From a virus, in IMG/VR virus record IMGVR_UViG_3300034061_006822, positions 1-23,178 of that record: a DNA stretch of 23,178 nucleotides; one strand, given 5' to 3'. Position numbers and translations under genes: made by a program. The notes beneath the pieces were generated by a model. That model searched no databases and had not been told where the DNA came from. It worked only from the letters and a program-made list of their open reading frames with translations. Each line of letters begins with the position of its first letter. Position 1 is the first letter of the stretch. Positions 2,873 through 22,551 of the stretch are shown here, one piece after another.

Positions 2873-3469
2873 CTGCGGGTTCCTTCTTTGGCAGGCGTTG
2901 GTGCCTAAAAATATTTTCTCTTTATTTTTGCAAAAAGGCAACAAAAAAGTTTGCTTTTTTGCAAAAAAGTTCTCAGTCTGAAAACCTTGCGCCGTGGTCG
3001 CCGGCAGGCTTCCAGGGCTTTCCGCCCCAAGGGCTTGGCTCGAACCTTTGACACCTGCCGGCGACCACGCGGCGTGGCCGCGCGACGCTGTTTCAACAGG
3101 CATGCGCTCAAGGATTCTGGCCCGGTTGATCGCGAGGTCGCTCGGCCCAGGCTCCCAGTCTTTCCAGCAAGAAGCGCCAAGCCTTTTGTCAGACTTCCAG
3201 CGCTCTGCAACTGAAGGAAAATTGACAACAAATCCTCTGCGAACCATCTCCGCAACAAGAGCTTTGTGTCTCGATTCAAGCCACAACAATTTGTCGTAAA
3301 AGAAAATAACGTGACCTTTGCCGAGCGAGTAATTCTTTGGAATGCAAAATGATTTCTCGCGCTCATGCGCCTTTGCTGAAAGGGCAAACACCCTCGGCAA
3401 TTCTCTATATTCTGCCACCAGGTGCTTGCTGTGAAGCTCTGATGGACAAACAACATTAATTCTTGTCAT
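2315..3469 (-). CDS. DenV-like pyrimidine-dimer glycosylase, in frame with a downstream phage protein (384 aa)
   Basis: Residues 1-125 closely resemble T4 endonuclease V, a base-excision enzyme that flips and cuts UV-induced pyrimidine dimers. The N-terminus MTRINVV...HLVAEYRELPRVF keeps the key residues known for T4: Thr2 (the alpha-amino nucleophile), Arg3, His16, Arg22, Glu23 and Arg26. The GKGHVIFFYDKL block (50-61) and DLAINRARILERM (111-123) also match. The aromatic WYKYYG tail of T4 DenV is absent. Instead the frame runs on, without a stop, through a GC-rich palindromic element (residues about 134-159) and an AT-rich linker into a second protein starting at Met200. Either this is a true fusion, or the element extended denV while the second gene is made from its own start. 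A GAAGGGG ribosome-binding site precedes the ATG at 3469, immediately after a 109-bp repeat. Confidence is high for the DenV domain and moderate for the full-length fusion. Confidence 0.8.
   Translation of the reverse strand: MTRINVVCPSELHSKHLVAEYRELPRVFALSAKAHEREKSFCIPKNYSLGKGHVIFFYDKLLWLESRHKALVAEMVRRGFVVNFPSVAERWKSDKRLGASCWKDWEPGPSDLAINRARILERMPVETASRGHAAWSPAGVKGSSQALGAESPGSLPATTAQGFQTENFFAKKQTFLLPFCKNKEKIFLGTNACQRRNPQMTKTFTRKINAIAAAQRDIVRLNEDNSVDFSIRQFETQAVGSGSEWRVTVTLIGSNEEQAALAQRLLPQYTFTFSPPEQEEPETMENVETEVAKKPRVKAPKAPKAESTQPKARRVSAYSGKSLHPAKFADDGSAVNPRREGSHGFNSMQIIISNPGISFEEYISSGGRLNDLAWDIEHGNCRVE
2913..2941 (-). promoter_or_regulatory. Possible leftward sigma70-like promoter for the second protein of the DenV ORF
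   Basis: On the minus strand TTGCCT (2941-2936) is followed after 17 bases by GAAAAT (2918-2913), and the start codon at 2872 lies about 40 bases further on. The same TTGCCT box with a 17-base spacer occurs in the divergent control region at 5091-5063. The surrounding DNA is very AT-rich. The -10 match is only 4 of 6, so this is a weak call. Confidence 0.3.
2942..2969. repeat. Three alternating A6/T6 blocks able to form two exclusive hairpins
   Basis: CAAAAAAG (2942-2949), CTTTTTTG (2954-2961) and CAAAAAAG (2962-2969) follow one another, so the middle block can pair with either neighbour. The second and third overlap into a perfect 16-base palindrome (2954-2969). A further TTTTTGCAAAAA lies just before, near 2925-2935. 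The block sits between the GC-rich palindromic element and the putative promoter of the downstream gene. Confidence 0.55.
2993..3069. repeat. GC-rich palindromic element inside the DenV reading frame
   Basis: A perfect 16-bp inverted repeat, CGTGGTCGCCGGCAGG (2993-3008) against its complement at 3054-3069, encloses 45 bases. Four more pairs (CGCC/GGCG) extend the stem after a two-base bulge on one side. The inner part contains AGGGCTT twice as a direct repeat. The element is much richer in GC than the AT-rich DNA immediately to its left, and long open frames cross it on both strands. It lies exactly where the conserved DenV sequence ends (after residue 125), adding residues about 134-159 to the frame. 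This resembles palindromic elements that insert in frame into coding genes, such as those described in Rickettsia, but no kinship is shown. Confidence 0.65.
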
Positions 3470-3483
3470 CTGGCAACCCCTTC

Positions 3484-3592
3484 AGGTTCCAAGTTCCTTT
3501 TTTCTTCTTCTTCATAGACTCTGGAAGAGGAAGGAGGAAAGAGAAAGAGGGGAGAGATTTGAAACCAAGCTGAAAAAGGGAACTTGGAACCT
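3484..3592. repeat. 109-bp imperfect palindrome, copy 1 (upstream of denV-like gene)
   Basis: The ends are perfect 14-bp inverted repeats: AGGTTCCAAGTTCC (3484-3497) and its complement (3579-3592). Inside, CTTCTTCTTC (3504-3513) can pair with GAAGAGGAAG (3524-3533), with one G-U pair, around a 10-base loop. The interior is a pyrimidine tract followed by a purine tract. A second copy of exactly the same length and orientation lies at 15536-15644, about 82% identical without gaps by my count. This copy fills most of the 141-base gap between the DUF932 stop and the denV start and ends 14 bases before the denV ATG. It may be an RNA hairpin (processing or attenuation), a protein-binding site or a small mobile element with terminal inverted repeats. 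Confidence 0.85.
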
Positions 3593-3610
3593 CTCCCTAA
3601 AACTGTCAGA

Positions 3611-4561
3611 TCAGGCTGCCAGCTCAAGAAGCCTTTCTTCAACATCCGTCTTGAGTTTGCTGTTGTCGCCGAGCCATGCACGTTGCATGCGCGTCGCATT
3701 GTTCTGGCCAGCAACGTGATCTGCCCAGTGGGTGACGGAATTCAACACACCCCACCCGGTGCCGACTTCGGCGCCCGGCGCATTGTAAAGACTGCCGAGA
3801 ATTTGCTGAATCTTTTTGGGCATCAGATCGCTGCCCATTATGTCAGACTCTCCTGCAAGTTCTTCCGCGCCAATGGCAGGAAGCAAAACTTTGCGCACAG
3901 CATCTTCAACAGAAATCTTCAGCTGGTCAAGTGTTCTGGCGCGTTTTTCGGCCAGAGCAAGGTTCTCGTGCGCGCTCTGAATCACCGCGTGCGCAGAGTC
4001 GGCATCGAATTCAGTCAGGTGATTTTGGGTATAGTTGATCACCCCTTCGCGCTCGGCCATCGCCATCGTGTTGGCACAAACGACCCGAACAGTGGTCGTG
4101 CGGCAGGTGATTGCGCGCCCGACTTCGTGCGGAGAGGTGATCAAGAGGTAGCCATTGACTTTGTCGCCAGGCTTGACGTCAAATGAATGGCCCAGTCGCG
4201 CGAGCGCCCAGACCGTTTTGCCGCCGCGCAGGCTTCCAGCAGTTTCAAGGGTCGCGCCGCCAGCTTCAACATACCTGCGCATGAAGCCGAGCATGTCAGA
4301 GTTTTGCAGTGGCTTCCAGCCATTGCCAGCAACAGTCAAAACCCGGTTGTCAGTGCTGCGCACCAGCGCTTTGCGCGGCAGCTCAATCACCCTGCCCAGC
4401 TCGCTGGGGTCTGAGGCAAAAGTCGGCAGGAGCTTGACTTCCCAATCCAGGCCGGAAGCCTTCAGCATTTCGTCAACACTGATGTTGCCGTCAACTCGTG
4501 CACCGAGGCCATGCCACGGCACTTCATTTGCGTAGGCCATTGTTTCGACTTCGTGAGACAT
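3611..4561 (-). CDS. DUF932 family protein
   Basis: This 316-residue protein has the sequence pattern of the DUF932 family, found widely in phages and plasmids: VPWHGLGARV near residue 14, then GWKPLQNSDMLGFM (81-94), a central SPHEVGRAITCRTTTVRVVCANTM block (about 143-166) and a C-terminal TGWGVLNSVTHWADH (about 269-283). The length fits the family. The biochemical role is not established; some relatives are annotated as LGT- or plasmid-associated proteins. The ATG at 4561 has an AAGGA ribosome-binding site 8 bases upstream. It is the second gene of the leftward arm, after a hairpin at 4607-4634, and is followed by the 109-bp repeat. A DNA-related or anti-host early function is plausible from its place near the divergent promoters but is unproven. 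Confidence 0.85.
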   Translation of the reverse strand: MSHEVETMAYANEVPWHGLGARVDGNISVDEMLKASGLDWEVKLLPTFASDPSELGRVIELPRKALVRSTDNRVLTVAGNGWKPLQNSDMLGFMRRYVEAGGATLETAGSLRGGKTVWALARLGHSFDVKPGDKVNGYLLITSPHEVGRAITCRTTTVRVVCANTMAMAEREGVINYTQNHLTEFDADSAHAVIQSAHENLALAEKRARTLDQLKISVEDAVRKVLLPAIGAEELAGESDIMGSDLMPKKIQQILGSLYNAPGAEVGTGWGVLNSVTHWADHVAGQNNATRMQRAWLGDNSKLKTDVEERLLELAA

Positions 4562-4606
4562 TTTCTGATCCTTTTTTGCAGAGAGATGATCCCCTCTGCT
4601 GCCTCA

Positions 4607-4634
4607 AGCCTCGCCAAGTTTCCCTGGCGAGGCT
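4607..4634. other. Perfect 10-bp hairpin between two leftward genes
   Basis: AGCCTCGCCA (4607-4616) and TGGCGAGGCT (4625-4634) form a perfect stem with an 8-base loop, between the winged-helix-like gene and the DUF932 gene. On the minus strand no T run follows directly (TGAGGCAGC), so it is not a classical intrinsic terminator in the local transcription direction. It may be an mRNA processing or stabilising hairpin, or a weak attenuator. Confidence 0.5.
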
Positions 4635-4655
4635 GGTTGCGTTATGTGGAAACTA

Positions 4656-5015
4656 TCAATCGGTCGGGAATGTGCCGCCAAAGCACATATCTTGCAATTC
4701 AGGACAGGTCGGCGTCACTGTAAGTTCTGCATAATTTGGCAATTTAGCAGCCTTTCTGAAGCCTTCTTCAGTGAGGATGACGCATTCGCCATCAGAAATA
4801 AGCAAGCCCTTCTTAACCAAGCTGGAAACTGTGCCAGAAAGCACCTTTCCTTTTGGTGCCTGATACTCTGAGTCGCTGTCGCTGATGCAGTCGCACCAAA
4901 CTTGAAAATCATCTTGGTTAAATCTGTAATCCAGATTCCATTTCCACCTTGCGGATACGAAGTGGTTTTTCAGGACATTGTCAAGAACCGCTTCTTCGTT
5001 GGCTGTCAGCGTCAT
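4656..5015 (-). CDS. Small winged-helix-like protein, unknown function (119 aa)
   Basis: This is the first gene of the leftward arm, starting at an ATG at 5015 with a GGAGAG ribosome-binding site and lying directly next to the divergent promoter region. The middle of the protein (TVSSLVKKGLLISDGECVILTEEGFRKAAKL, written here only for its pattern and spanning about residues 62-92) has the helix-helix-beta-hairpin rhythm of a winged helix in which a recognition helix is followed by a small wing. The N-terminal TANEEAVLDNVLKNHF could be the first helix. The C-terminus ends in a Pro/Cys-containing tail. A transcriptional regulator of the divergent region is a reasonable guess from fold and position, but no family was recognised with certainty, and the first half has an acidic Asp/Ser-rich stretch (ISDSDSEYQ) not typical of repressors. 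Confidence 0.7.
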   Translation of the reverse strand: MTLTANEEAVLDNVLKNHFVSARWKWNLDYRFNQDDFQVWCDCISDSDSEYQAPKGKVLSGTVSSLVKKGLLISDGECVILTEEGFRKAAKLPNYAELTVTPTCPELQDMCFGGTFPTD

Positions 5016-5062
5016 CTTCGTCTCTCCTCGGGTTGGTGGGGTCGCCCCCTGCTGATAAAGAC

Positions 5063-5091
5063 TTTATGAACCATCCAAACAGAAAAGGCAA
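5063..5091 (-). promoter_or_regulatory. Possible leftward promoter of the early arm
   Basis: On the minus strand TTGCCT (5091-5086) and CATAAA (5068-5063) are separated by 17 bases, about 50 bases before the first leftward start codon at 5015. The same TTGCCT box and spacing occur before the internal gene at 2872. The -10 match is 4 of 6. The location in the divergent gap supports it. Confidence 0.4.
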
Positions 5092-5108
5092 CAATTTTCT
5101 TTCACTTT

Positions 5109-5136
5109 TTGAAAATATTTTCATTAATTATATCAA
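5109..5136 (+). promoter_or_regulatory. Possible rightward promoter in the divergent control region
   Basis: TTGAAA (5109-5114) and TATCAA (5131-5136) are separated by 16 bases in the most AT-rich part of the divergent gap, about 110 bases before the GTG start at 5249. The gap 5016-5248 holds no convincing gene. An upstream ATG at 5066 is in frame with the next gene but lacks a ribosome-binding site, and the residues it would add look like translated AT-rich non-coding DNA. Operators are likely here but I could not identify one. Confidence 0.3.
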
Positions 5137-5248
5137 CAGCTTAAAAGAAAAACGCCTGGAGGAACAAAAAACACTTTTCAAAAAGCCTTTTTTCGGGCAA
5201 GATTCCTTTCGCTGGATCCAAGCCAGCGAACCCTTTTGGAGAACAACA

Positions 5249-6067
5249 GTGACCAAAAAGCCAAATCTCCCTGCTGTCAAGGCAGAGAGCCCAGTCGCCG
5301 CCATCAGCGACGACTTTTACGAGCACCAGGGTGCCGGTCTTCAGAATGTCGGTGCATCTGACGTTCTAATCCCTCGGCTCAGCATCCTTCAGGCCTTGAG
5401 TCCGCAGATCAACAAGCGCAAGCCTGAATACATTGAAGGCGCCGAGCAGGGCATGATCTGCGACATCGGCACCGGCGAGCTTTTCAAGGATGGCGTGCTG
5501 TTTGTGCCTTGCTACTACTCAAAGGTCTATATCGAGTGGCACCCTCGCGAATCAGACAAAGGTCTGGCGGCCATTCACACTGATTCCGAAATCCTTGATC
5601 AAACCACGCGCAATCACCGCAATCAGCCTGTTCTGCCGAATGGAAACTACATCTCAGAAACAGCGCAATTCTTCGGCCTGAATCTCAACGCTGATGGTCG
5701 GCGCAGTTTTATCCCGATGGCTTCGACCATGTTGAAGCGGGCGCGGCGGTGGATGACCCTCGCGACTGGGGAAAAGCTGGACCGTGGAGACGGCACCAAA
5801 TTCACTCCGCCGCTGTTCTATCGCGCATATCACCTCACGACTGTCGCCGATGGAAATGCGCAGGGCGACTGGTTCTCTTGGAAGATCGAGCGCGGACCTT
5901 CGCTGCCTGAGCTCGGCGGAGCTTTCAAGGATTTGGGCTTTGGAAATTGGCGCGCCTTGAAGGAAGATTGCGTTGATTTCATGAAGTCGTTGTCTGAGGG
6001 CAAGCTGCGCGGCGACATCGGCGCTCCGGAGGAAAGTTCTCAGCATGACAGCGAAGGAGCGATGTGA
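5249..6067 (+). CDS. Conserved phage protein of unknown function, first gene of the rightward arm
   Basis: The chosen start is a GTG at 5249 with TGGAGAA 8 bases upstream, giving 272 residues (VTKKPNLPAVKA...). The frame is open further upstream to an ATG at 4949, but that part overlaps the control region and the opposite gene and does not look coding. A conserved-looking block follows: SDVLIPRLSILQALSPQ, then KPEYIEGAEQGMICDIGTGEL and VLFVPCYYSKVYIEWHPRES. This pattern recurs in phage proteins found beside replication and recombination genes, but I know of no established activity. The C-terminus is Glu/Ser-rich (GAPEESSQHDSEGAM), an acidic tail that is also seen in phage single-strand-binding proteins, so an ssDNA-binding or recombination role is possible but unproven. 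Its stop is coupled to the next gene (TGATG). Confidence 0.8.
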   Translation: MTKKPNLPAVKAESPVAAISDDFYEHQGAGLQNVGASDVLIPRLSILQALSPQINKRKPEYIEGAEQGMICDIGTGELFKDGVLFVPCYYSKVYIEWHPRESDKGLAAIHTDSEILDQTTRNHRNQPVLPNGNYISETAQFFGLNLNADGRRSFIPMASTMLKRARRWMTLATGEKLDRGDGTKFTPPLFYRAYHLTTVADGNAQGDWFSWKIERGPSLPELGGAFKDLGFGNWRALKEDCVDFMKSLSEGKLRGDIGAPEESSQHDSEGAM

Positions 6068-6624
6068 TGGAGGATCAGGCAGAATTTGATCTACCTCAAC
6101 CTGATTCTTCCAGGCCGGGCCTGCCTGCGCTCGACAAGGTTCTGCGCGAGGCCATTGACCTTGAGTCTCTTGTCGTGCAGCAGGAGAGTGAGCTGAAGGC
6201 CACCAAGGCTGCTCTTCAGCGGATCAAGACAGGCACGATCCCTGACATGATGGCCGAGCTTCAAATGGAGAAGATGACCTTCATGGGCTGGGAAGTCAGC
6301 GTCAGCGACTTCGTCAGCGGCTCTTTGCCGAAGGAGGCTGTGAAGCGTTCTGCAGCAATCAACCTGCTCGTCGGCTACGGCGCTGAAGGCCTGATCAAGA
6401 CTGAGGTGAAGGCAACTTTCGGAAGGAGCCAGCACAATGCTGCAATTGATCTTGCTCAACGTCTTGTTGAAGAAGGATTCTCTGCAGAGATTGAAAGCGG
6501 CGTTCACACCCAGACGCTTTGCAAATTTGCACGCGACCGCATCGAGGCTGGCGAGCAGATCGATTTGGACATTCTGGGTCTTTACACCGGCAAGGTGGCG
6601 AAGATAAAAGAGGTCAAAAAATGA
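6067..6624 (+). CDS. Conserved phage protein of unknown function (185 aa)
   Basis: The start is taken as the ATG at 6067, which overlaps the previous stop as TGATG and has GAAGGAG 7 bases upstream; a GTG one codon earlier is also possible. Residues about 20-55 (ALDKVLREAIDLESLVVQQE...) are strongly helical with heptad-like spacing, suggesting a coiled coil. The central MEKMTFMGWEVSVSDFVSGSLPKE is a short beta-rich stretch. The C-terminal half has a pattern of two charged helices ending in a Lys-rich tail. It looks like a partner of the preceding gene, being coupled to it and similar in codon style. No family was recognised. A DNA-binding or recombination helper role is an inference from position only. 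Confidence 0.75.
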   Translation: MEDQAEFDLPQPDSSRPGLPALDKVLREAIDLESLVVQQESELKATKAALQRIKTGTIPDMMAELQMEKMTFMGWEVSVSDFVSGSLPKEAVKRSAAINLLVGYGAEGLIKTEVKATFGRSQHNAAIDLAQRLVEEGFSAEIESGVHTQTLCKFARDRIEAGEQIDLDILGLYTGKVAKIKEVKK

Positions 6625-7514
6625 CCACAATTATCGTCGGCGCCGGAATGGCTGGGCTTTTGGCTGGTTGCATGATCCGAGATCATCGCATTATTGAAAG
6701 CCAGCCGTCTCTTCCGAACAATCATCACGCAGTTTTGCGTTTTCGTTCTTCGGTTGTTGGGGATGTCGTCGGCATCCCGTTCAAAAAAGTCAGGATGATG
6801 AAGTGCGTTCAATCCTGGCAGAACCCTGTCGCAGACCAGCTGTCTTACAGCTACAAGACGAATGGCACTGCGCAGTTGCGCTCAGCAATAAGCGCAACTG
6901 GCGAGCTTGCGGACCGGTTCATCGCGCCCTCAGATTTTATCCAAAGGATGGCTGAGATGTGCACCATTCAGCATGGGTCAGATTTCGATCCCAATCTGTC
7001 ACCAGGCTCTCCGATCATCAGCACAATGCCGATGCCAGCGCTAATGGTGGCGCTTGGCTGGAAGAACATCCCTGAATTCAAGACTCACAAAGGTTTCATC
7101 CTTCAGCGCTCTTTGAAGGATGTTGATGCGTATTGCACTGTTTACGATCCTGATCCGAGCAGTGCAATAACTCGCGTCAGCATAACAGGCGACAAGCTAA
7201 TCGCAGAGCTCGCTTGGCCTCAGGAGACAGGGAAGGTTCTGGCCAGGGCGATGGACCTTCTCGGCCTGCCAGACCGCCTTGTCATTGCTGGCAATGAGGG
7301 ATGGAGAGAACAGAAGTATGCAAAGATATCGCCAATCAGCGATGATATTCGCAAGAATTTCATCATGTGGGCAACAGAGAAGTTTGATATTTACAGCCTT
7401 GGCCGTTTCGCGACGTGGCGCCCAGGGCTTTTGATGGACGACATTGTCAATGACGTCCGTGTCATCCAACGACTCATCAACGGTGGATCGTCGTACCACC
7501 ACAAGAAAGGCTGA
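6621..7514 (+). CDS. FAD/NAD(P)-binding oxidoreductase (amine-oxidase/UGM-like fold)
   Basis: The ATG at 6621 overlaps the previous stop (ATGA) and has an AAAGAGG ribosome-binding site, giving 297 residues. The N-terminus MTTIIVGAGMAGLLAG contains a Rossmann dinucleotide motif GxGxxG (G7, G9, G12), with an acidic residue (E26) at the end of the second strand, as in FAD-binding enzymes. The C-terminal GRFATWRPGLLMDDIVNDV resembles the FAD-contacting GR-x-W...D segment of UDP-galactopyranose mutase and related flavoproteins. The substrate cannot be told from sequence. It is shorter than most UGM or amine oxidases. It lies 5 bases before the flavin-dependent thymidylate synthase gene, so a part in pyrimidine or flavin chemistry, or in DNA base modification, is worth considering. 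Confidence is good for the fold and low for the reaction. Confidence 0.75.
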   Translation: MTTIIVGAGMAGLLAGCMIRDHRIIESQPSLPNNHHAVLRFRSSVVGDVVGIPFKKVRMMKCVQSWQNPVADQLSYSYKTNGTAQLRSAISATGELADRFIAPSDFIQRMAEMCTIQHGSDFDPNLSPGSPIISTMPMPALMVALGWKNIPEFKTHKGFILQRSLKDVDAYCTVYDPDPSSAITRVSITGDKLIAELAWPQETGKVLARAMDLLGLPDRLVIAGNEGWREQKYAKISPISDDIRKNFIMWATEKFDIYSLGRFATWRPGLLMDDIVNDVRVIQRLINGGSSYHHKKG

Positions 7515-7519
7515 CCAAA

Positions 7520-8296
7520 ATGAACGTGACTTTGATTGACTACACTGGCTGCGGGTCTCCTGACCCGGCGCGCCACGCGGCGAATGTCTTGGTGTTCACC
7601 AAGCAGACCCGCCTTGAGATGAAGCCGAATCTGTTCGCTCAGATTGAGGCTTGGAGCGATGAAAAGATCATCGCTGAGTTGTCCTATATGGCCAACACCA
7701 TCCCGAGCAGTTGGGAATTCGTTGAATACAAATTCCTGATTACAGACGTGACCAGGGCTTTCACGCACCAATTCGTCAGGACCAGGACAGGCTCTTATGC
7801 GCAGCAGACGATGCGCGTCTTGAATGTTGACGGTTGGACCTATGGCTACGGGCCGACGACCAAGCCTGTTCAGAGCATCCCATTTGATGCTGAAGACAGT
7901 GCACAGGCGGACAGGTCTGCATTTTACGACTCAACGATGCAGATGATTGCCAACGCCTATAATGATCTGATCGAGATGGGCGCAAAGATTGAGGATGCTC
8001 GCGGCGTTTTGCCGACAAACATCCACACCAACATCGTCGCGAAGTTTTCGCTGCGCTGCGTTGCTGATATGGTACGGAAGCGTTCTTCGCCGAGGACCCA
8101 GGGCGAGTATCGCGATGTCCTGGAGGCCATGCGCGCCGAGGTGATCCGCGTTCATCCTTGGGCAAGTCTTTTCATTGACAGGGATTTTGACCGATCAGCG
8201 AAAGATCTTGATGCTGCGATTGCAGGATCAAGCCTTGCTCCCGAAACCAAGACAGCGATGATGAAGCTCGTTGATCAGTTGAGGGCTGCGTCATGA
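7520..8296 (+). CDS. thyX: Flavin-dependent thymidylate synthase ThyX
   Basis: This 258-residue protein matches the ThyX family, which methylates dUMP to dTMP using methylene-tetrahydrofolate, NADPH and FAD. Residues 79-99 (RAFTHQFVRTRTGSYAQQTM) contain the signature region. The usual RHR...S motif reads R87-T88-R89-TG-S92 here, so the His is replaced by Thr. EDARGVLPTNIHTNIVAKFSLR (about 158-179) matches the conserved ARxxLP block involved in nucleotide binding. An AAAGG ribosome-binding site precedes the ATG at 7520. It overlaps the HAD phosphatase gene by four bases (ATGA). Phages carry ThyX to raise the dTTP supply for genome synthesis. Identity is certain at family level; whether the altered signature changes activity or substrate is open. 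Confidence 0.93.
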   Translation: MNVTLIDYTGCGSPDPARHAANVLVFTKQTRLEMKPNLFAQIEAWSDEKIIAELSYMANTIPSSWEFVEYKFLITDVTRAFTHQFVRTRTGSYAQQTMRVLNVDGWTYGYGPTTKPVQSIPFDAEDSAQADRSAFYDSTMQMIANAYNDLIEMGAKIEDARGVLPTNIHTNIVAKFSLRCVADMVRKRSSPRTQGEYRDVLEAMRAEVIRVHPWASLFIDRDFDRSAKDLDAAIAGSSLAPETKTAMMKLVDQLRAAS

Positions 8297-8736
8297 CTGC
8301 TATTATCGTTGACCTTGACGGCACGCTCTTCGATCACGATCACAGGATTGATTTTGCGAAGAACAAGGACTGGGATGGCTATCACAGCAGGCTCGGCCTT
8401 GACAGGGTTCATCTGGACGTGATGTGGTTGCTGAAGGTTCTGCCAAGCTATGTCCAGATCGTTTTCTGCACTGGCCGGCCTGAGAAGTGGAGGGCTGCGA
8501 CAATTGCGCACATGCGCAAGCACAACATCATTGTCCCGGACGAGCTTTTGATGCGCCCAGACAATGACTTTTCCAAGGACTCAATCTTGAAGCCTGCCTT
8601 GCTTGAAGGTTTCTTTGGCGGCAAGCAGGCGACAATTGACAATGTCAAGTTTGTTCTTGATGACCGCGATGCTGTTGTCGAGGCTTGGCGCAATTACGGA
8701 CTTGTTTGCTGGCAAGTCAGGCAGGGGAGCTTCTGA
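8293..8736 (+). CDS. HAD-superfamily phosphatase (polynucleotide kinase 3'-phosphatase-like)
   Basis: This 147-residue protein carries the HAD motifs in order: motif I DLDGT (D7, D9), motif II CTGRPE (T60), a candidate motif III lysine (K95 or K100 in FSKDSILK) and motif IV LDDRD (D123, D124). The arrangement FCTGRPEKWR...TxxHMRKH...LLMRP resembles the phosphatase domain of T4 polynucleotide kinase/phosphatase, without the kinase domain. It could remove 3'-phosphates from DNA or RNA ends, or act as a nucleotidase on dNMPs. It sits between thyX and a MazG/DUF1599-like gene, which favours either nucleotide salvage or DNA end repair. The start overlaps the thyX stop (ATGA) and the stop overlaps the next start (TGATG). 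Confidence 0.85.
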   Translation: MTAIIVDLDGTLFDHDHRIDFAKNKDWDGYHSRLGLDRVHLDVMWLLKVLPSYVQIVFCTGRPEKWRAATIAHMRKHNIIVPDELLMRPDNDFSKDSILKPALLEGFFGGKQATIDNVKFVLDDRDAVVEAWRNYGLVCWQVRQGSF

Positions 8737-9089
8737 TGGAAAAGCCGAAAAAAGTTCCTGACTTCCTGCGCGACGCTGCAGCGATATATGAACAGCGCAA
8801 TTCTCTTTACGGCGATAACTACAAGCGCTTCGGTCTGGTAATGGTTGCCTTGTTTCCGCACGGGATGAACCTTGAATCATCCGAGGATTGGAACAGGGCA
8901 GGCATCTTCGTTCAGATGGTCAGCAAGATTACGCGCTATGCAAATTGCTGGAGCTCAGGTCACGATGATAGCCTTGATGACCTGTCAGTCTACACGATGA
9001 TGCTCAGAGAGCTTGATGGAGAGGCTTTTGACAGCACCTCTCTGAAGGCACCTCTTCAAGAAATGCAAGACGAGAATGGCGCAGCCTGA
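8736..9089 (+). CDS. DUF1599/MazG-like putative nucleotide-handling protein
   Basis: This 117-residue protein begins MEKPKKVPDFLRDAAAIYEQRNSLYGDNYKRFG and contains WNRAGIFVQMVSKITRYA and SSGHDDSLDDLSVYTMMLRELD. This fits the all-alpha, MazG-like DUF1599 group, in which acidic residues (here in H-DDSLDDL, about residues 87-94) would bind metal. Related proteins were proposed from genome context to act in phage nucleotide or DNA modification, and MazG-fold enzymes hydrolyse NTPs or dNTPs to monophosphates. That would suit its place after thyX and a HAD phosphatase. The ATG at 8736 follows a GGGGAG ribosome-binding site and overlaps the previous stop (TGATG); a longer reading from 8685 runs inside the upstream gene and is less likely. 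Confidence 0.75.
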   Translation: MEKPKKVPDFLRDAAAIYEQRNSLYGDNYKRFGLVMVALFPHGMNLESSEDWNRAGIFVQMVSKITRYANCWSSGHDDSLDDLSVYTMMLRELDGEAFDSTSLKAPLQEMQDENGAA

Positions 9090-9250
9090 TGTTTGGTGTT
9101 CGCCAAAACTCTGTCTTCATAAAAGTCTCGCAGGTCTGTCCGAGTGCCTGCGACGATCGTCTGGTCCGCGTCAAGGACCCTTTCCTCCCTGCAAACTTCC
9201 CTGGCGTTTCGGCGCCAGGGCTTTTTCCAATATTGTTTGACGGAGCTTGA
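9089..9250 (+). CDS. Candidate small ORF bridging two operon genes (53 aa)
   Basis: An ATG at 9089 overlaps the preceding stop (TGATG) and the frame stays open for 53 residues to a TGA at 9248-9250, one base before the GTG of the DnaQ-like gene. The product starts MFGVRQNSVFIKVSQVCPSACDDRLVRV and continues with a Pro/Gly-rich tail (LPANFPGVSAPGLFP). Two cysteines (CPSAC) could bind metal. The ribosome-binding site is weak. The exact end-to-end fit between neighbours is the main support. Against it, a terminator-like hairpin lies inside the frame (9199-9228), so the stretch may instead be an untranslated spacer. Confidence 0.45.
   Translation: MFGVRQNSVFIKVSQVCPSACDDRLVRVKDPFLPANFPGVSAPGLFPILFDGA
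9199..9228 (+). terminator. Terminator-like hairpin before the polymerase genes
   Basis: CCCTGGCG (9199-9206) and CGCCAGGG (9213-9220) form a perfect 8-bp GC-rich stem with a 6-base loop, followed by CTTTTTCC. This has the form of an intrinsic terminator, with a short T run. It could lower expression of the downstream replication genes or be read through under antitermination. The same bases also lie within a small open frame, so the function is uncertain. Confidence 0.5.
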
Positions 9251-9251
9251 T

Positions 9252-9788
9252 GTGACAATAAGGTTTTTCTTTGACACAGAGACGACGGACCTTGTATCAA
9301 ACACTTTGTTGCCGATCAACCAGCAGCCAAGGATCATTGAATTTTATGGCTGCCTGCTTGATGATGAATATAAATTGATTGAAGAGGTTGAGAGCTTTGT
9401 TGATCCTGGCATTGACATATCGCCAGAGATAACAAGGATTACAGGCATAACGCCATCGCACATCGTTGGTGCGCCGAAGTTTCAGGTCATCGCTGAAACA
9501 GTCAAAAGCCTGATAGGCAGGGCTGATGAGGTCGTCGCGCACAATTTGAGTTATGACTTGTTCGTTCTTGAAACAGAGATGAAGAGAATCAACAGAACAG
9601 TCATTTGGCCAAAGCTGAAGACTTGCACTGTTGAATCCACTGAGTGGATAAAAGGCTACAGACTCAGCCTTTCGGCCATGCACGAAGAGTTCTTCAAAGA
9701 GCCTTTCTCCGGCGCCCACCGTGCGCGCGTTGATGTTGAGGCCATGATCAGGTGCTTCAAGCACGCAAGACAGGAGTGCTTGATTTGA
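9252..9788 (+). CDS. DnaQ-like 3'-5' exonuclease (DEDDh family)
   Basis: The start is taken as the GTG at 9252, seven bases after a GGAG ribosome-binding site, giving 178 residues; longer readings run through the terminator-like hairpin. The product has all five catalytic positions of DEDDh exonucleases: FFDTETTDL (D8, E10), HNLSYD (D102), and H156 with D161 in GAHRARVD. This is the family of the polymerase III epsilon proofreading subunit. It removes mispaired 3' ends in single-stranded DNA. It is immediately upstream of, and overlaps by four bases, a DnaE-type polymerase alpha gene, so it most likely serves as that enzyme's proofreader. No alpha-binding tail or clamp-binding motif could be made out with certainty. 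Confidence 0.9.
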   Translation: MTIRFFFDTETTDLVSNTLLPINQQPRIIEFYGCLLDDEYKLIEEVESFVDPGIDISPEITRITGITPSHIVGAPKFQVIAETVKSLIGRADEVVAHNLSYDLFVLETEMKRINRTVIWPKLKTCTVESTEWIKGYRLSLSAMHEEFFKEPFSGAHRARVDVEAMIRCFKHARQECLI

Positions 9789-12631
9789 TTCGCATCAGGA
9801 CAGGCTATTCCTTCAGAGAAGCAGTTGGGTCTCTGGAAGAGGTCGCGCAGCAACTCAAGTCAGTGCACCAATCAAATCGTTGGCCGATGACTGACCGTTC
9901 TTCAACCTTTGGTTGGTTGCGCTGGGAGAAGCTGGCCAAGAAGAACGGCGCAATACCTGTCTTTGGCGTCGAGCTTGCTGTCTCTGAATCAATACACGCC
10001 AAGAAGCCGAGCTTTGATTTCTGGACATTCCTCGCCAAGGGAGACTTGGCTTGCATCAACAGGCTTGTTGAGTTGGCCACCACACAATTCAGATATCGCC
10101 CGCTGCTGACCATCGATCAAGCGCTCGCGCAAGAAGGTGTGTACAAAATAGCAGGAAACAGGACAAACCCTTTGTCTGTCGGTGCAGGCAGGGAAGATTT
10201 GTTCTTGGCCCTTGGCCCAGGGACTTCGAGGGGACAGGTCGTGGCCGCGAAAAAGCTCGGTTGGAAGCTCGCTGCAGCAAGCAACAATCGCTACCCTCAA
10301 GAGCAAGACAAAGGGTTTTACGAGGTGCTCTGCGGAAGAAATGCAGAGACGCAGAGTTATCCGCAGCACATCCTCAGCGAAGATGAGTGGAAAGAATCAA
10401 CACAGCAATTTACAGAATTCCACGAAGAAGCTCTGATCAACTCTTTGGCAATCCTTGAAGGCTGCAACTCAAAGCTCCCTCGTGCCGAGCTTCTTCGCCC
10501 AGAGAGGCCGGAAACATTGCTGGAGATGTGCATTAAAGGCGCCGAAAAGCTCGGTGTTGATCTTTCTGATGAAGTGTATTCAAAAAGATTGAGCAGAGAG
10601 TTGGACCTTATCCAAGAGAAGAAATTTGAGGATTACTTTTACATCGTTTCGGACATGTGCATTTGGGCGCGTGACAGGATGATCGTCGGCCCGGCGCGCG
10701 GGTCAAGTTGCGGGTCGCTCGTGTGCTATCTGCTCAGGATCACAACAGTTGACCCAATTCCTTTTGGCCTGATATTCGAGCGATTTATTGACATCAACCG
10801 TGACGATCTGCCAGACATTGACATTGACTTCAGCGACCAGCAGCGTCACCTCGTTTTTGAATATGTCAACGACAAATATGGCTCGGAGAGGGTCGCGCGG
10901 CTCGGCACTGTGGCAATGTTTCAACCGAGGTCTGCTCTGGCCGAGGTCGGCGCCGCACTGAGGATACCGCGCTGGAAGTGCGATGCTGTTTCTGAGTCGT
11001 TGATTGAGAGAAGCTCAGGCGACAGCCGCGCGCTCAACACTCTTGAAGACACCCTGAAATCAATGCCAGCAGGCAGGGACTTGATTGATGAATATCCTCA
11101 ATCAGTCATCGCTGCAAGGTTTGAAGGCCACCCAAGGCACTACAGCCAACACGCTGCAGGAATCGTGATTGCCGAGCGTCCGATAACAGACTTTGTCGCA
11201 GTGGACCACCGCACAGGCGCGACGATGTGCGACAAGAAAGACGCAGAGGAGCTCAATCTGCTCAAGATTGATGCGCTGGGCCTTACTCAGCTTTCTGTCT
11301 TTGAAGATGCGTTGGAGATGGCTGGTTTGCCAAGGGATACGCTTGAGAAGCTGCCGCTTGAAGATGCTGCTGCATTTGACGTTCTCAACAACAGCAAGTG
11401 GTCTGGTGTGTTTCAGTGGAATGGTATGGCCCTTCAGTCAATAACAAAGCAATTCAAGGTCACCTGTTTTGATGACATTGTTTCTGTGACTGCGCTTGGG
11501 CGCCCAGGGCCGCTGGCCAGCGGCGGCGCGCATGAGTGGATCCGGCGCAAGAACAGGGTGAACCCGATTGAGTATCCTCACCCAATCTTCAAGCCATACC
11601 TTGAAGACACAATGGGCATTGTTCTTTACCAAGAGCAGGTAATGGAGATCGGCAGGCAGATCGGCAGCTTGTCATGGGGAGAAGTCACCGCCTTACGCAA
11701 GGCGATGTCCAAATCTCTCGGAAAAGAGTATTTCGATCAATTCGGCGATCCTTGGAAGAAAGGCGCTATAGCTCGCGGCGTTGATCCCAGCAAGGCTGAC
11801 AAGGTTTGGGACGATTTGTGCGCATATGGCGCTTGGAGCTTCAACAAAAGCCACTCTGTTGCATATGGATTGATCAGCTATTGGTGCTGCTGGCTGAAGG
11901 CGCATCATCCATTCGAATTCGCTGCAGCGACACTGACTCATGAAACAGACCCAAACAGGCAGATAATGCTTTTGAGGGAGATGGTGGCAGAAGGCTATGA
12001 ATATGTGCCATTTGACCCAGATCAGTCAACTGACAGATGGACAGTCGGCTCAAGAGATGGCAAGCGCGTTCTTGTTGGGCCTTTGTCGGCTGTCAAGGGC
12101 ATAGGGCCAAAGATGGTCAGCCAGATCATGAGTGCGAGAGCGCGCGGCGAGAAGATTGATGGTCGTGCTGCTAAAATTATGCAGTCAGCAAAAACAGACA
12201 TTGACAGCCTTTTTCCAATAAAAGATGCATTCAGAAGGATTCTGCCTGATCCTTCTGCAAGGAACATTCACACCCCTGCCACACCAATCTTCAATGTTCA
12301 GATCCAGAGCGAAGATTATGATGTGTTGGTCTTCTGCACACTTAGCAAGATCAATCCGCGCGACGAAAACGAAGCAGTGATTGTGGCCCGGCGCGGTCAT
12401 GAAATAAAAGACGGCAAGACTGCATCTCTCAACCTTCAGTTGACAGACGACACAGACACGATCTTCGGCAAGATTGACAGATTCAAGTTTGCAGAAATCG
12501 GCAGGCCAATCATTGATCGCGGCAGGGTCGGCAAGGCTCTTTACGCAGTGAAGGGTCGTGTCAGGGGCGGTTCGAGCTTCAGGATGATAAGCATAAAATC
12601 GGTTAGATACATAGGAGACATGGCGGAATGA
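9785..12631 (+). CDS. DNA polymerase III alpha subunit, DnaE-type (phage replicase)
   Basis: This C-family polymerase is about 948 residues long, shorter than the roughly 1160 of E. coli DnaE. I place the start at a TTG at 9785, eight bases after AGGAG and overlapping the DnaQ-like stop; a GTG at 9752 is also open. The N-terminus (YSFREA...PMTDRSSTFGW) aligns with the PHP domain but has lost most metal-binding histidines. The palm is intact: GPARGSSCGSL (about 302-312), LPDIDIDFSD with two catalytic Asp (about 342-351), and KIDALGL with the third Asp (about residue 495). A helix-hairpin-helix (AVKGIGPKMV, about 770-779) and a possible OB-fold C-terminus follow. No phage clamp or clamp loader is seen, so it would probably use the host clamp. 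It overlaps the primase-helicase gene (ATGA). Confidence 0.93.
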   Translation: MIRIRTGYSFREAVGSLEEVAQQLKSVHQSNRWPMTDRSSTFGWLRWEKLAKKNGAIPVFGVELAVSESIHAKKPSFDFWTFLAKGDLACINRLVELATTQFRYRPLLTIDQALAQEGVYKIAGNRTNPLSVGAGREDLFLALGPGTSRGQVVAAKKLGWKLAAASNNRYPQEQDKGFYEVLCGRNAETQSYPQHILSEDEWKESTQQFTEFHEEALINSLAILEGCNSKLPRAELLRPERPETLLEMCIKGAEKLGVDLSDEVYSKRLSRELDLIQEKKFEDYFYIVSDMCIWARDRMIVGPARGSSCGSLVCYLLRITTVDPIPFGLIFERFIDINRDDLPDIDIDFSDQQRHLVFEYVNDKYGSERVARLGTVAMFQPRSALAEVGAALRIPRWKCDAVSESLIERSSGDSRALNTLEDTLKSMPAGRDLIDEYPQSVIAARFEGHPRHYSQHAAGIVIAERPITDFVAVDHRTGATMCDKKDAEELNLLKIDALGLTQLSVFEDALEMAGLPRDTLEKLPLEDAAAFDVLNNSKWSGVFQWNGMALQSITKQFKVTCFDDIVSVTALGRPGPLASGGAHEWIRRKNRVNPIEYPHPIFKPYLEDTMGIVLYQEQVMEIGRQIGSLSWGEVTALRKAMSKSLGKEYFDQFGDPWKKGAIARGVDPSKADKVWDDLCAYGAWSFNKSHSVAYGLISYWCCWLKAHHPFEFAAATLTHETDPNRQIMLLREMVAEGYEYVPFDPDQSTDRWTVGSRDGKRVLVGPLSAVKGIGPKMVSQIMSARARGEKIDGRAAKIMQSAKTDIDSLFPIKDAFRRILPDPSARNIHTPATPIFNVQIQSEDYDVLVFCTLSKINPRDENEAVIVARRGHEIKDGKTASLNLQLTDDTDTIFGKIDRFKFAEIGRPIIDRGRVGKALYAVKGRVRGGSSFRMISIKSVRYIGDMAE

Positions 12632-14829
12632 AAGTTAGCAGCCTGAGCGACCTGCCTCAGACAATGAGTTACCTTCGGCGCGTTGGCGCTGAACCTCGTT
12701 CATTGCGCACAGCAGTTGTGAAGCAGGCTCAAGGCCGATACTGGCGCGACATGGCAGTGATCAAATTCAAAAAGACAGGAGAGATTGACTGCTCAACAGC
12801 AGAGCACTCTCCGACAGAGCTTGAGCAGAATTCGATAATGTCTGAATTCTCCAGCGTTCAGTGGCCAGAGCTCAAAAAGATTCAGAGCATAATAAATCCG
12901 CCTGAGATGATAAAAGTTGCAGAGAAAGAATCACTTTTTGAGTTCCGGGACACAGACAACAAATTGATAATGATTCAGGTGCGCCTGGACAAAGAAGGCG
13001 AAAAAAGATATGTCCCATGGACCTATTGGGACGACGATCAGTGGCGGAATTGCGAGCCTGATGGGCCTTTGCCGCTTTGGGGTGCAGACGCATTAAAGGA
13101 ACACACCACAGCCTTCATCCACGAAGGCGCAAAGGCTGCCAGGAATGTGCGCTGGATGGTCGAGGGAAAGACTGCAGAGGCTCGCAAAGCCTTGGCCGAG
13201 CATCCTTGGGGTCAGGAGCTTGCGCACGCGGCGCATGTTGGCTGGATCGGCGGCGCGATGAGTCCTTATCGCACTGATTGGTCTGCGCTCCAGAAGTCTG
13301 GCATCAAAAGAGTTTACATCGTCGCAGACAATGACGAGCCAGGCAGGAAGGCGGCACCCTCAATAGCCTATCACATGAGGGTCCCAACCTTCATGATTCA
13401 ATTCACCAATGAGTGGCCAGAGCATTTTGATCTTGGCGACAAATTCCCACCGAAGATGTTCGGTGGCGTCGGTGGTTCGGAGCATTACACCGGCCCACAA
13501 TTCAGGGAATGCCTTCACCCGGCAACATGGGCCACAGACCTTGTTCAACAAAAGCAAGGCAGGCCGACCGCGCGCTTGAGAAGCAACTTCAAAGATATGT
13601 GGGCATACATTGAAGAGGCCGACATATTTGTTTGCACAGAGATGCCAGAGATAATTCGCTCTGAGTCTGTTCTCAATAAGATGCTTGCCTCTTATTCCCA
13701 CGTCAATGACACAACCAGGCTTTTGGTGAAAGAGTTTTCTGGCAGGTCGGCGCGCATCTGCTACAGGCCAGACAATCCTGGGCTTTTGGTGACGTTTAAA
13801 GGCTCTTCGGCGATAAATCTCCATGTGGCATCAACGATACGACCTTCGCCTGGAGATTACAAGCCTTGGCTTGAGTTTCTTGACTATCTGTTCCCGAACA
13901 AGCAAGAGCGCGAGTCTGTCATGCGCTGGTGCGCGACAATCATCGCTCGCCCTGAAATAAGGATGGCCTACGGGCTTTTGCTTGTCAGCGAGAGGCAAGG
14001 GGTCGGCAAGACGACCCTCGGCTCAAACATCCTTGCGCCGCTTGTCGGCACGCACAATGTTGGCTATCCTGGCGAGTCAGATATCCTCGGATCATTCAAT
14101 GACTGGATGGCGAACAAAAGGCTGGTAATCGTCAACGAGATATACTCAGGATCTTCATGGAAAGCCTACCACAGCCTGAAAAGCGTCATCACAGACAGGG
14201 ATTTGACTGTCAACCAGAAATACATGCGCCAATACCAAATTGACAATTGGTGCCACGTTGTGGCCTGCTCCAATTCCATGCGCGCTCTCAAGATGGAAAA
14301 TGATGATCGCAGGTGGTTCTATCCAGAGGTGACAGAGGTTCCTTGGCCGAGCAGCAAATTCTCTGAATTGAGGCAGTGGCTTGACAATGGCGGACTTCAG
14401 ATCATCTGTCATTGGGCGAAAAACTTTGGCGAATATGTGCGGCAAGGCGACCGTGCGCCGATGACTTCGCGCAAGCAGGAATTGATTGAAGGCAGCAGGT
14501 CAGACGCCCAGAGAGAGGCAGCAGCACTGGCAGAAGTAATGAAGGACCGCAGCTCGCCAGTCGCTTTGGCGATAAAAGATGTTGTTGCTTGGGTCAGGGC
14601 AGCAACGCAAGGCAAAGTCTTCGACAGCGATTATGAATTGCGTAAGGCAATGCAAGATGTCGGTGTGCGGTGCTGGGGCAAAAGAGTTAAGATTGCTGGC
14701 AGGCTTCAATATGCCATGGTCAATGATGCGCTGTGGGACCTTCTTGCAAGGGCTGATGACGAAAAAGACCTTGAAGAAATCCGCAACCACAGGCTTTTGC
14801 CCTCTCAACTGATGGAGCATGAATTGTGA
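12628..14829 (+). CDS. TOPRIM primase fused to SF3-like helicase (DUF5906-type)
   Basis: This 733-residue protein combines two parts. The N-terminal half has TOPRIM primase signatures: HEGAKAARNV with the conserved Glu (about 165-174) and VADNDEPGRKA with the DxD-type acidic pair (about 232-242). The C-terminal half has a helicase ATPase of the kind found in phage primase-polymerase proteins: Walker A SERQGVGKTT (about 454-463), Walker B RLVIVNEI (about 498-505), and ACSNSMRAL followed by NDDRRWFY, resembling the sensor/motif C and arginine-finger region. No N-terminal CHC2-type zinc finger is visible, so template recognition must differ from DnaG. It would prime and unwind DNA for the adjacent polymerase. 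The start overlaps the polymerase stop (ATGA) and the stop overlaps the next start (GTGA). Confidence 0.9.
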   Translation: MKVSSLSDLPQTMSYLRRVGAEPRSLRTAVVKQAQGRYWRDMAVIKFKKTGEIDCSTAEHSPTELEQNSIMSEFSSVQWPELKKIQSIINPPEMIKVAEKESLFEFRDTDNKLIMIQVRLDKEGEKRYVPWTYWDDDQWRNCEPDGPLPLWGADALKEHTTAFIHEGAKAARNVRWMVEGKTAEARKALAEHPWGQELAHAAHVGWIGGAMSPYRTDWSALQKSGIKRVYIVADNDEPGRKAAPSIAYHMRVPTFMIQFTNEWPEHFDLGDKFPPKMFGGVGGSEHYTGPQFRECLHPATWATDLVQQKQGRPTARLRSNFKDMWAYIEEADIFVCTEMPEIIRSESVLNKMLASYSHVNDTTRLLVKEFSGRSARICYRPDNPGLLVTFKGSSAINLHVASTIRPSPGDYKPWLEFLDYLFPNKQERESVMRWCATIIARPEIRMAYGLLLVSERQGVGKTTLGSNILAPLVGTHNVGYPGESDILGSFNDWMANKRLVIVNEIYSGSSWKAYHSLKSVITDRDLTVNQKYMRQYQIDNWCHVVACSNSMRALKMENDDRRWFYPEVTEVPWPSSKFSELRQWLDNGGLQIICHWAKNFGEYVRQGDRAPMTSRKQELIEGSRSDAQREAAALAEVMKDRSSPVALAIKDVVAWVRAATQGKVFDSDYELRKAMQDVGVRCWGKRVKIAGRLQYAMVNDALWDLLARADDEKDLEEIRNHRLLPSQLMEHEL

Positions 14830-15008
14830 TTGTTTTGACATTTGTTCTGTGCCTTGCCGGGCAATGTGAGCCAGGCATTCAATATCAACGCGCAGCAGGC
14901 TATGGCGAAGCTCGTGCTTGCAGGTTGGCTTTCGATTATGTGAGGGCCAGAGCGCGCCCTGAAGCGGTGTTTAAAGATGTTGAATGCAAGCTGGAGGAGA
15001 AGAAATGA
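14826..15008 (+). CDS. Small protein with hydrophobic N-terminus (60 aa)
   Basis: The GTG at 14826 overlaps the primase-helicase stop (GTGA). The product begins MIVLTFVLCLAGQCEPGIQYQ: a hydrophobic stretch of about 11 residues followed by small residues and Cys, which resembles a short signal sequence or lipoprotein-like leader, though no basic residue precedes it. The remainder (GEARACRLAFDYVRARARPEAVFKDVECKLEEKK) is charged and helical, with two more cysteines. It may be exported and disulfide-bonded. Its stop overlaps the next start (ATGA) and it supplies the strong GGAGGAG ribosome-binding site of that gene. I do not recognise a family. Confidence 0.6.
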   Translation: MIVLTFVLCLAGQCEPGIQYQRAAGYGEARACRLAFDYVRARARPEAVFKDVECKLEEKK

Positions 15009-15130
15009 GCGACATGCGCGATGGCCTAAAAATTGGCTTGGGTGTGGCACTTGTTTTTGGGGTGCCTATTGCTGTCGTCTGGGGGGTGATCATCCTGATG
15101 GCTTGGTTTCAAAAAACATTGGGCCTTTGA
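15005..15130 (+). CDS. Tiny single-span membrane protein (41 aa)
   Basis: The ATG at 15005 has a strong GGAGGAG ribosome-binding site and overlaps the preceding stop (ATGA). The product MSDMRDGLKIGLGVALVFGV continues into a single long hydrophobic stretch (about residues 10-34) and ends WFQKTLGL. The charged N-terminus and amphipathic C-terminus suggest a simple transmembrane peptide. The function is unknown. It lies between replication genes and a nuclease gene, not in a lysis cassette. Confidence 0.6.
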   Translation: MSDMRDGLKIGLGVALVFGVPIAVVWGVIILMAWFQKTLGL

Positions 15131-15146
15131 CGAGAAAACAATACCG

Positions 15147-15569
15147 ATGAATTTTCTTTCAGAGAAAGATGTCCGTAGCTGGTGGCGAGATGAAGCAAAG
15201 GCTGCAGGGGAAGAAAAATGCCTTTTCTGGATCGAACCAAAGGCGGGATCGACATTTGGTTTCCCTGATTTGCTTTATGCAAAAGGTGGAGTGCTTCTGC
15301 CGTTTGAGTTAAAGATTGGTGAGTTGACAGGTAACACTTTGGTTTGGAAACAAAGAGTGATTCAATCAATATGTTCAGCAAAGATGATGTCGGCTGGCGT
15401 CGATGTGTTCACCTTTGTCGGTGTGCGAAACACAAGCAAAATTGCTTTTCTTCACACCTCTCAAGGATTCCTTGGGAAATCAACAAATTGGCAAGAAATT
15501 TCCTGTTTTCGAGAAATTTGGGAGAAGGCTCGGCCAGGTTCCAAGTTCCTTTTTTCTTCTTCTTTCTAG
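15147..15569 (+). CDS. PD-(D/E)XK nuclease (VRR-NUC / Holliday-resolvase-like)
   Basis: This 140-residue protein shows the PD-(D/E)XK core: FWIEPKAGSTFGFPDLLYAKGG (about 27-48, with Asp41 in FPD) and LPFELKIGEL (51-60, with E54-x-K56). A helix containing WKQRVIQSICSAKMMSAG follows, which fits the QRxxxxxxxxxG pattern of VRR-NUC and phage-type resolvase-like nucleases. It would cut branched or damaged DNA in a metal-dependent reaction and may resolve replication intermediates. The ribosome-binding site is weak. The last ten or so residues (GSKFLFSSSF) are encoded by the 109-bp repeat, copy 2, so the natural C-terminus may have been altered by that element. Confidence is good for the fold and moderate for the substrate. 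Confidence 0.8.
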   Translation: MNFLSEKDVRSWWRDEAKAAGEEKCLFWIEPKAGSTFGFPDLLYAKGGVLLPFELKIGELTGNTLVWKQRVIQSICSAKMMSAGVDVFTFVGVRNTSKIAFLHTSQGFLGKSTNWQEISCFREIWEKARPGSKFLFSSSF

Positions 15570-15644
15570 ACTCTAGAGGAGAGAGAGAGGAAGAAGAAGA
15601 GAGGGGAGTTTCGAAAACAAGCTGGAAAATGGAGCTTGGAACCT
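15536..15644. repeat. 109-bp imperfect palindrome, copy 2 (upstream of NusG-like gene)
   Basis: This copy has the same length and orientation as the one at 3484-3592. The ends AGGTTCCAAGTTCC (15536-15549) and GGAGCTTGGAACCT (15631-15644) pair with one A-to-G change that keeps a G-U pair in a plus-strand RNA. The interior again runs from a T/C tract to an A/G tract, with TCTAGACTCTAGA at the turn and CTTCTTCTT able to pair with AAGAAGAAG. It overlaps the nuclease stop codon and ends 19 bases before the NusG-like start, directly before that gene's ribosome-binding site. Confidence 0.85.
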
Positions 15645-15663: not shown

Positions 15664-16164
15664 ATGTGGAAGTTAATTCAAATATTCAGAGGCAAGACGC
15701 TGGCTTCTTGTGCTGTGCTTGTTGCTTGTGGGGCAGAGGTGTATTGCCCTGTGAAGAAAGAGCGCAAAAGAATTCGCTCAACGAGAGGCAAGATTGTCAT
15801 TGTTGATGCTCCTGCTTACTATGGTTGGGCGTTCATGAAAGGCTTTCCTGATCCGAGCGCTCTTGCTTTTCACGCAGATGTTAGGTTCAAGATAATCGAA
15901 GGCTCTGCAGCCTGTTTCTCTGATGATCAGATAGATCAAATAAGAGAAGACGAGCGCAGGTGGAATGCTCAGCACTCTTTCCCTGATGGGCGCAAGCCTT
16001 TTGCTGAAGGAGAGAGAGTAGTTGTTTGTGGCGGACTGCTCAAAGGCAGAGACGTCGTTGTTGTTAAAGACCAAGGGAGCATTGTTTTGATAAAAACAGG
16101 AGATGAAAATATTTTTTCCGTCATCAAAATAAATCCTTTTCTTTTGGACCGTTTTGGCGCATAA
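15664..16164 (+). CDS. NusG/RfaH-like transcription elongation factor (NGN-like + KOW)
   Basis: This 166-residue protein has the size and layout of NusG paralogs. The N-terminal part (WKLIQIFRG...AEVYCPVKKERKRIR...YYGWAFMKG) fits an NGN domain, including the VYCP segment that in NusG/RfaH precedes the RNA polymerase contact. The C-terminal FAEGERVVVCGGLLKGRDVVVV (about 113-134) is a clear KOW motif: acidic/Gly, V-x-V, then GxLxG. Such proteins bind the RNA polymerase clamp and change pausing or termination. An AAGGA ribosome-binding site precedes the ATG at 15664. Its position just before the packaging and head genes suggests a role in late-gene antitermination. The 109-bp repeat in its leader could be a target for self-control, but this is inference. 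The gene is AT-rich relative to the late genes. Confidence 0.78.
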   Translation: MWKLIQIFRGKTLASCAVLVACGAEVYCPVKKERKRIRSTRGKIVIVDAPAYYGWAFMKGFPDPSALAFHADVRFKIIEGSAACFSDDQIDQIREDERRWNAQHSFPDGRKPFAEGERVVVCGGLLKGRDVVVVKDQGSIVLIKTGDENIFSVIKINPFLLDRFGA

Positions 16165-16572: not shown

Positions 16573-16654
16573 GGGGGCAAAATCTTTGGGCAAAGGGGCA
16601 AAACCGAATGGGGATTCAACTACTTTCAAAACCGCGAAATGAAAGACAAAAGTG

Positions 16655-18884: not shown

Positions 18885-18892
18885 GAGGCGGG

Positions 18893-20735: not shown

Positions 20736-20745
20736 GGCAATCAAA

Positions 20746-22047: not shown

Positions 22048-22054
22048 TCAATCT

Positions 22055-22077: not shown

Positions 22078-22110
22078 TCTCCCCACATTCGGAAGCAAAG
22101 GAAAGCTCCC

Positions 22111-22542: not shown

Positions 22543-22551
22543 TGACTTGAC

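Follow-up and report, generated by a model that had tools for sequence, protein, structure and literature searches.

We identified two copies of a 109-bp palindromic element in a 23,178-nt stretch of viral DNA (IMG/VR record IMGVR_UViG_3300034061_006822), referred to here as the window. The left copy (copy 1, positions 3484..3592, transcribed strand minus) sits inside a leftward operon, with a DUF932 gene (3611..4561, minus strand) upstream in the same operon and denV-family and SNF2 genes on its other side. The denV-family gene (2315..3469, minus strand; PF03013, phrog_1183) lies directly downstream of the copy and is followed by a gene for an SNF2-type helicase (609..2252, minus strand). Its pyrimidine-dimer glycosylase domain occupies the N-terminal third of the product.

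At 384 amino acids, the product of the denV open reading frame (ORF) has roughly three times the normal length; beyond the glycosylase domain, which stops near residue 125, the C-terminal part is unrelated. A further 77-bp palindrome (2993-3069; 25-nt arms CGTGGTCGCCGGCAGG...) lies at the join within this ORF and is possibly an insertion that fused two genes. Searching with a 16-mer from this palindrome found no repeated palindrome elsewhere.

The right copy (copy 2, 15536..15644, transcribed strand plus) comes after the replication genes, which include a DNA polymerase III alpha-like gene (9752..12631, plus strand) and, upstream of the copy, a gene for a DUF5906 primase/helicase (12628..14829, plus strand). 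It precedes a gene for a NusG-like protein (15664..16164, plus strand; phrog_6386, transcription antiterminator) that opens the packaging and structural operon, in which the order is NusG-like, HNH, TerS and TerL. A small ORF (15147..15569, plus strand) adjoins this copy, and about eight relatives likewise have it next to the right element. The ORF has no match in Pfam, PHROG or PDB; by eye, it is possibly PD-(D/E)XK nuclease-like (GFPDLL...ELKIG). Its last ~11 codons fall within copy 2, in the 5′ arm. A first-pass annotation of this DNA had placed each copy just before a gene, which is accurate with the addition that copy 2 is not purely intergenic. In two relatives (L092 and L098), the stop codon of the equivalent ORF precedes the element.

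The two copies are 84% identical over 110 nt (blastn, E = 3e-28), close to the figure of about 82% that the first-pass annotation had counted by hand, and a repeat search of the window returned a direct repeat of 119 nt (80% identity) that spans both. The left 14-bp arm of copy 1 (3484..3497, AGGTTCCAAGTTCC) consists of two 7-bp units, AGGTTCC and AAGTTCC, and pairs perfectly with the right arm (3579..3592, GGAACTTGGAACCT). The arms of copy 2 (15536..15549 and 15631..15644) differ by one A-to-G change in the right arm, which is kept as a U-G pair in plus-strand RNA; the description of the ends as nearly unchanged thus holds. The repeat search also found an inverted repeat with 30-nt arms (80% identity) in copy 2. 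The interior of copy 2 contains a GAG/AAG-rich polypurine stretch (15576..15608, plus strand). Such stretches recur among the elements: read on the transcribed strand, the 3′ half is purine-rich, with AGAGAGA runs.

Both copies fold more stably than dinucleotide shuffles of themselves on either strand (z = -3.0 to -4.0). The z scores of copies 1 and 2 were -4.0 and -3.2 in this shuffle test, and -3.1 and -2.6 in an RNAfold run of 51 elements. Copy 1 ends 14 nt from the ATG of the denV-family gene (3469, minus strand) and copy 2 ends 19 nt from the ATG of the NusG-like gene (15664, plus strand), and the Shine-Dalgarno-like stretches of both genes fall outside the hairpins, all as first annotated. 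The reported shared orientation applies to the DNA: the copies are ~84% identical when compared globally on the same DNA strand, versus 61% when read in gene direction. They are inverted relative to transcription because the denV operon runs leftward and the nusG-like operon rightward. Rfam gave no matches in the window at gathering scores and none up to E 0.5 in four relatives, and no intrinsic terminator or sigma-70 promoter was found at the element.

The element in related phages

Relatives were gathered by DNA polymerase III alpha and by a 15-sequence primase alignment, and whole records were then read; all are uncultivated, and many records are fragments. No isolated phage has the same primase at useful identity, and a query with the NusG-like protein recovered no relatives. 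Phages that share the polymerase III alpha and the DUF5906 primase (45-68% amino-acid identity), the two markers of the element-carrying clade, contain palindromes of 100-180 bp at corresponding junctions. Conservation in related phages, a check that the first-pass annotation had proposed, is therefore borne out.

Two junctions predominate. One, the usual place in relatives, is directly upstream of the SNF2 helicase gene; the other separates the primase gene from the module that follows it (nuclease, NusG-like or TerS). G009 and G021 have a third site, ahead of portal-side genes named by position. In nearly all contexts read, the element occupies a junction inside a leftward or rightward operon, before SNF2/denV or before nuclease/NusG-like/TerS genes. 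Two copies are present in the window and in G001, G002, G003, G006, G014 and G016, and three in G009 and G021. Single copies were found in G007, G008 and G017, at a junction where SNF2 itself follows the replication genes. G009 (L277-L280) and G021 (L288-L291) are phages of ~66-68 kb, and the three copies of G009 are ~22-24 kb apart.

A palindrome scoring >=30 occurs within 3 kb after the primase gene in 24 of 48 non-redundant loci, versus 7 of 177 equal-size windows from the same loci, which may themselves contain true left copies; about half of the primase loci thus lack a strong palindrome by this score. The distance from the end of the element to the next start codon, as assigned by a simple ORF caller, has a median of 21 nt and is <=40 nt in 34 of 51 elements.

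Terminase relatives up to 96% identical (L012-L091) lack the element wherever they are readable, so the element travels with the polymerase/primase module and not with the terminase module. Positions 16632-22584 of the window (terminase to capsid) have 86-90% DNA identity to L012, L013, L017 and L018, in which the element was not found, and a sharp mosaic boundary lies in the HNH/TerS region of the window.

Judged by the relatives, the element is a conserved family rather than a chance repeat or an insertion. The first-pass annotation had also suggested a MITE-like element. MITE, REP/BIME and RIME sequences are small intergenic palindromes with terminal inverted repeats. A mobile palindrome of this kind, duplicated within the phage, would explain the terminal inverted repeats and the presence of more than one copy, and similar tandem-heptamer palindromes do occur in bacterial chromosomes and in an unrelated phage (L006). 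Unlike such elements, this one is found at fixed operon junctions, in just one to three copies per genome, and keeps these places in phages whose polymerases are only 45-68% identical. Its ends are wholly rewritten between phages while its place is kept, which is not expected of a transposed element, and no close DNA relative of the window was found among 50,697 phage records. We consider mobility very unlikely.

Arm pairing and orientation

The arms fall into 35 types that differ from one another at >=3 of 14 positions (for example GGTTCCAAGTTCC, GGTTCGGAGTTCG, GGATCCAGATCCA, GGATCGGGATCGG, TTTCCGTTTCCG and AGGACGGAGGACGG). Arms form 13.1 of 14 possible pairs with their own partners versus 5.9 when swapped (the highest of 2000 arm shuffles reached 7.6), a difference that is inflated because most elements were recognised by their palindromicity. 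Every one of the 14 positions shows all four Watson-Crick pairs among the 35 types. Arms were compared anchored at their ends because a MAFFT alignment of all GGTTCC-type elements was too poor to yield a consensus fold (9 pairs).

In an alignment of seven TTTCC-type elements, 11 of the 32 consensus pairs have changes on both sides. Compensatory changes, for which the first-pass annotation had proposed a test, are therefore seen in this small alignment. Pairing is not confined to the 14-bp arms: it extends far past them, the elements form up to about 60 pairs, and the inner stems also contain compensatory changes. RNAfold predicts 14-63 long-range pairs across the 51 elements (median z -4.9), and the predicted stem is long and nearly continuous (at least two helical turns). 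Support less biased by selection than the arm test comes from the positions of the elements, the seven-element alignment and the arms common to copies of one genome. The retention of pairing despite rewritten letters suggests a conserved RNA signal. With its letters rewritten and its stem kept, such a signal would escape sequence searches. A two-arm pattern search of viral and genome collections, the route to relatives first proposed, matched just tandem TTCCAAGTTCCAGG repeats (L006-L011), which have a similar design and cores that are not homologous.

Copies within a genome share their arms. Arms match at 13 of 13 positions in 11 of 13 within-genome copy pairs, versus a between-genome median of 10 of 13, with the within-genome figure partly selected since some partner copies were chosen by arm similarity. 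The arms consist of tandem units of roughly 7 bp, with a periodicity of z = 11 at offset 7. No unpaired motif is conserved across arm types beyond low-complexity purine runs; an ACTC-like stem motif occurs in about half.

Orientation and mismatch type both bear on whether the element acts as RNA or DNA. In six of the nine multi-copy genomes (G001, G003, G009, G014, G016 and G021), copies agree better when read along transcription, often on opposite DNA strands. In the other three (the window, G002 and G006), one copy is inverted relative to transcription; such tolerance of inversion is what would be expected if a double strand, and not a particular sequence, were recognised. On the transcribed strand, G-U mismatches outnumber A-C mismatches 98:69 (p = 0.03) in copies away from SNF2 and equal them (39:39) in SNF2-side copies, a split chosen after the data had been seen; across all copies the excess is a weak signal (p = 0.07). 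Taken together, the orientation and G-U data favour an RNA that tolerates inversion, while leaving some room for a role at the DNA level.

Such a role would have the tandem 7-bp units of the inverted arms bind a phage or host protein, as an operator, looping or iteron-like site, with the hairpin incidental. The 7-bp periodicity is in keeping with this, as are the equal G-U and A-C counts of the SNF2-side copies and the arms that are private to each phage and common to its copies, as would be the case for a protein and its operators. A precedent comes from Geobacter metallireducens, where paired opposite-strand sites of three to five tandem hepta- or octanucleotides were proposed to bind global regulators (PMC2700814). 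As in the element, units of 7-8 nt repeat in tandem on opposite strands, either side of a spacer; the Geobacter sites differ in being chromosomal, present in many copies per class and conserved in sequence within a genome, and they have no link to phage operons or to covarying stems. A binding site would not need pairing far beyond the arms or compensatory changes in inner stems, nor does it account for the steady placement ~20 nt before start codons. We regard a DNA-level site as unlikely.

The first-pass annotation had further listed a replication or packaging site. Palindromes are common at replication origins, and in several phages the replication module lies between the copies. However, there are only one to three copies, pinned near start codons, one of them before SNF2 wherever SNF2 sits (including the single copies of G007, G008 and G017), and orientation tracks transcription rather than the DNA strand in the six genomes noted above. 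A packaging, recombination or replication-origin function is the least probable of the readings considered, and we largely discount it.

A candidate leader RNA hairpin

We propose, with a probability of roughly 45%, that each copy acts in cis as a hairpin in the leader RNA where two co-transcribed genes meet. Its most likely role would be that of a double-stranded signal, of the RNase III type, for cleavage or for stability. This reading fits best because the stem is long and symmetric, its letters are free, inversion is tolerated and its place before ribosome-binding sites is fixed. On transcription of the operon, the 109-nt stretch would fold as one long hairpin with an outer stem of 14 bp, inner stems (A/U-rich and others) and a low-complexity loop. 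The hairpin base would end ~20 nt before the next start codon, with the ribosome-binding site in the gap. A host RNase III-type enzyme would cut the stem, or the stem would block decay, and the genes behind it would then lie on a separate mRNA of different stability. In this way the replication genes would have transcripts distinct from those of two other operons, the late one (NusG-like/terminase) and denV/SNF2. We infer three parts of this model: the read-through transcripts, the action of a double-strand-specific enzyme on the stem, and the effect on mRNA levels. Co-transcription across the element is likewise presumed from gene order, and the junction positions and 21-nt median distance place the element between such genes, before a ribosome-binding site.

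RNase III processing hairpins between the genes of T7-like phages, and the lambda leader and sib sites, are long double-stranded stems between co-transcribed genes. As in these systems, the stem lies just before the next ribosome-binding site, and pairing is kept while the sequence is free to vary. The element differs in its length (100-180 nt), its 7-bp tandem arm units, its occurrence at one to three per genome and the matching of arms between copies; cleavage here is putative. A double-strand signal requires neither shared arms nor 7-bp tandem units, so that gene conversion between copies and slippage, respectively, would have to be assumed in addition. An RNA hairpin had been among the roles first suggested, and in this general form it is supported by the position near start codons, the pairing kept with rewritten letters and the orientation kept in most multi-copy genomes.

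The main rival to an RNase III-type signal is an antitermination RNA, in which the nascent hairpin, alone or with the NusG-like protein, makes RNA polymerase resistant to termination downstream. HK022 putL and putR provide the RNA-only model: they are ~70 nt, form two stem-loops and lie downstream of early promoters (PMC9378689). The resemblance is that putL and putR are also a pair of similar structured RNAs, one serving the leftward operon and one the rightward (PMC9378689). Unlike them, the element is one long hairpin that abuts start codons deep in operons and lacks conserved sequence; neither an invariant unpaired motif nor an Rfam match points to the conserved sequence by which put RNA contacts RNA polymerase.

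LoaP provides the protein-dependent model, as a NusG paralogue that acts through the dfn/mln leader hairpin, and NusG paralogues bind leader hairpins (PMC12691694). The resemblance would be a NusG-type protein that works through a leader hairpin. A UNCG loop caps the small dfn hairpin, whereas the element forms a large one, and many phages carry it with no NusG-like gene detected. A NusG-like gene lies directly behind the right copy in the window, L098/L099, L101, L106, L123, L204 and L200, and nearby in L114 and G018. The idea of a NusG-protein target, also raised at first, thus gains from some nine phages in which a NusG-like gene follows the right copy and loses from the carriers in which none was detected by HMM (G001, G005, G009, G014-G017; some are partial records).

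Arms that match within and not between phages would suit a co-evolving binding protein. Against antitermination, no unpaired motif is conserved beyond the purine runs and ACTC-like stem motif, the element can be inverted relative to transcription, and the coding start follows after ~20 nt; a search of the sequence just beyond the element found no terminator-like site. We therefore judge antitermination improbable, though worth weighing. More speculatively, and with similarly low probability, the arms may serve as an address private to each phage. In this view, a co-evolving factor in control of entire operons would read the hypervariable tandem-heptamer stem, for which the hairpin is the scaffold. 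Such a stem could act as a self/non-self tag, or as a new kind of RNA for processive antitermination or operon switching.

No described equivalent of the element was found in the literature beyond the analogues cited here. Were the RNase III-type reading correct, structured leader RNAs would mark the operon junctions throughout a clade of uncultivated phages and would offer a handle on how these phages split early from late expression. The concerted arms allow a clear test between gene conversion and a recognising factor as what keeps the copies alike.

Tandem-heptamer palindromes elsewhere

The design of tandem-heptamer palindromes may extend beyond this phage clade, judging from comparable arrangements in other records. 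An unrelated phage fragment (L006) contains three different long palindromes, GTTCAAAAAGAGGGACACGG..., AACCACAGAGACACAG... and AGGTTCCAAGTTCCAGG..., at 1113-1247, 3417-3524 and 3946-4055, each of which shortly precedes a structural gene. Two bacterial chromosomes contain tandem-heptamer GGTTCCAAGTTCC palindromes (L008, 2795-2897; L010, 3781-3897) with ends ~7-20 nt from start codons. Their neighbouring genes are, by eye, gpsA-like and aldo/keto reductase-like, and the L010 palindrome fills almost all of the gap between divergent genes. Finally, a terminase relative from another phage group (L065) has a 146-bp palindrome of the same design (6192-6337), with GAAGGAGAT tandem units, ~22 nt before an ATG.
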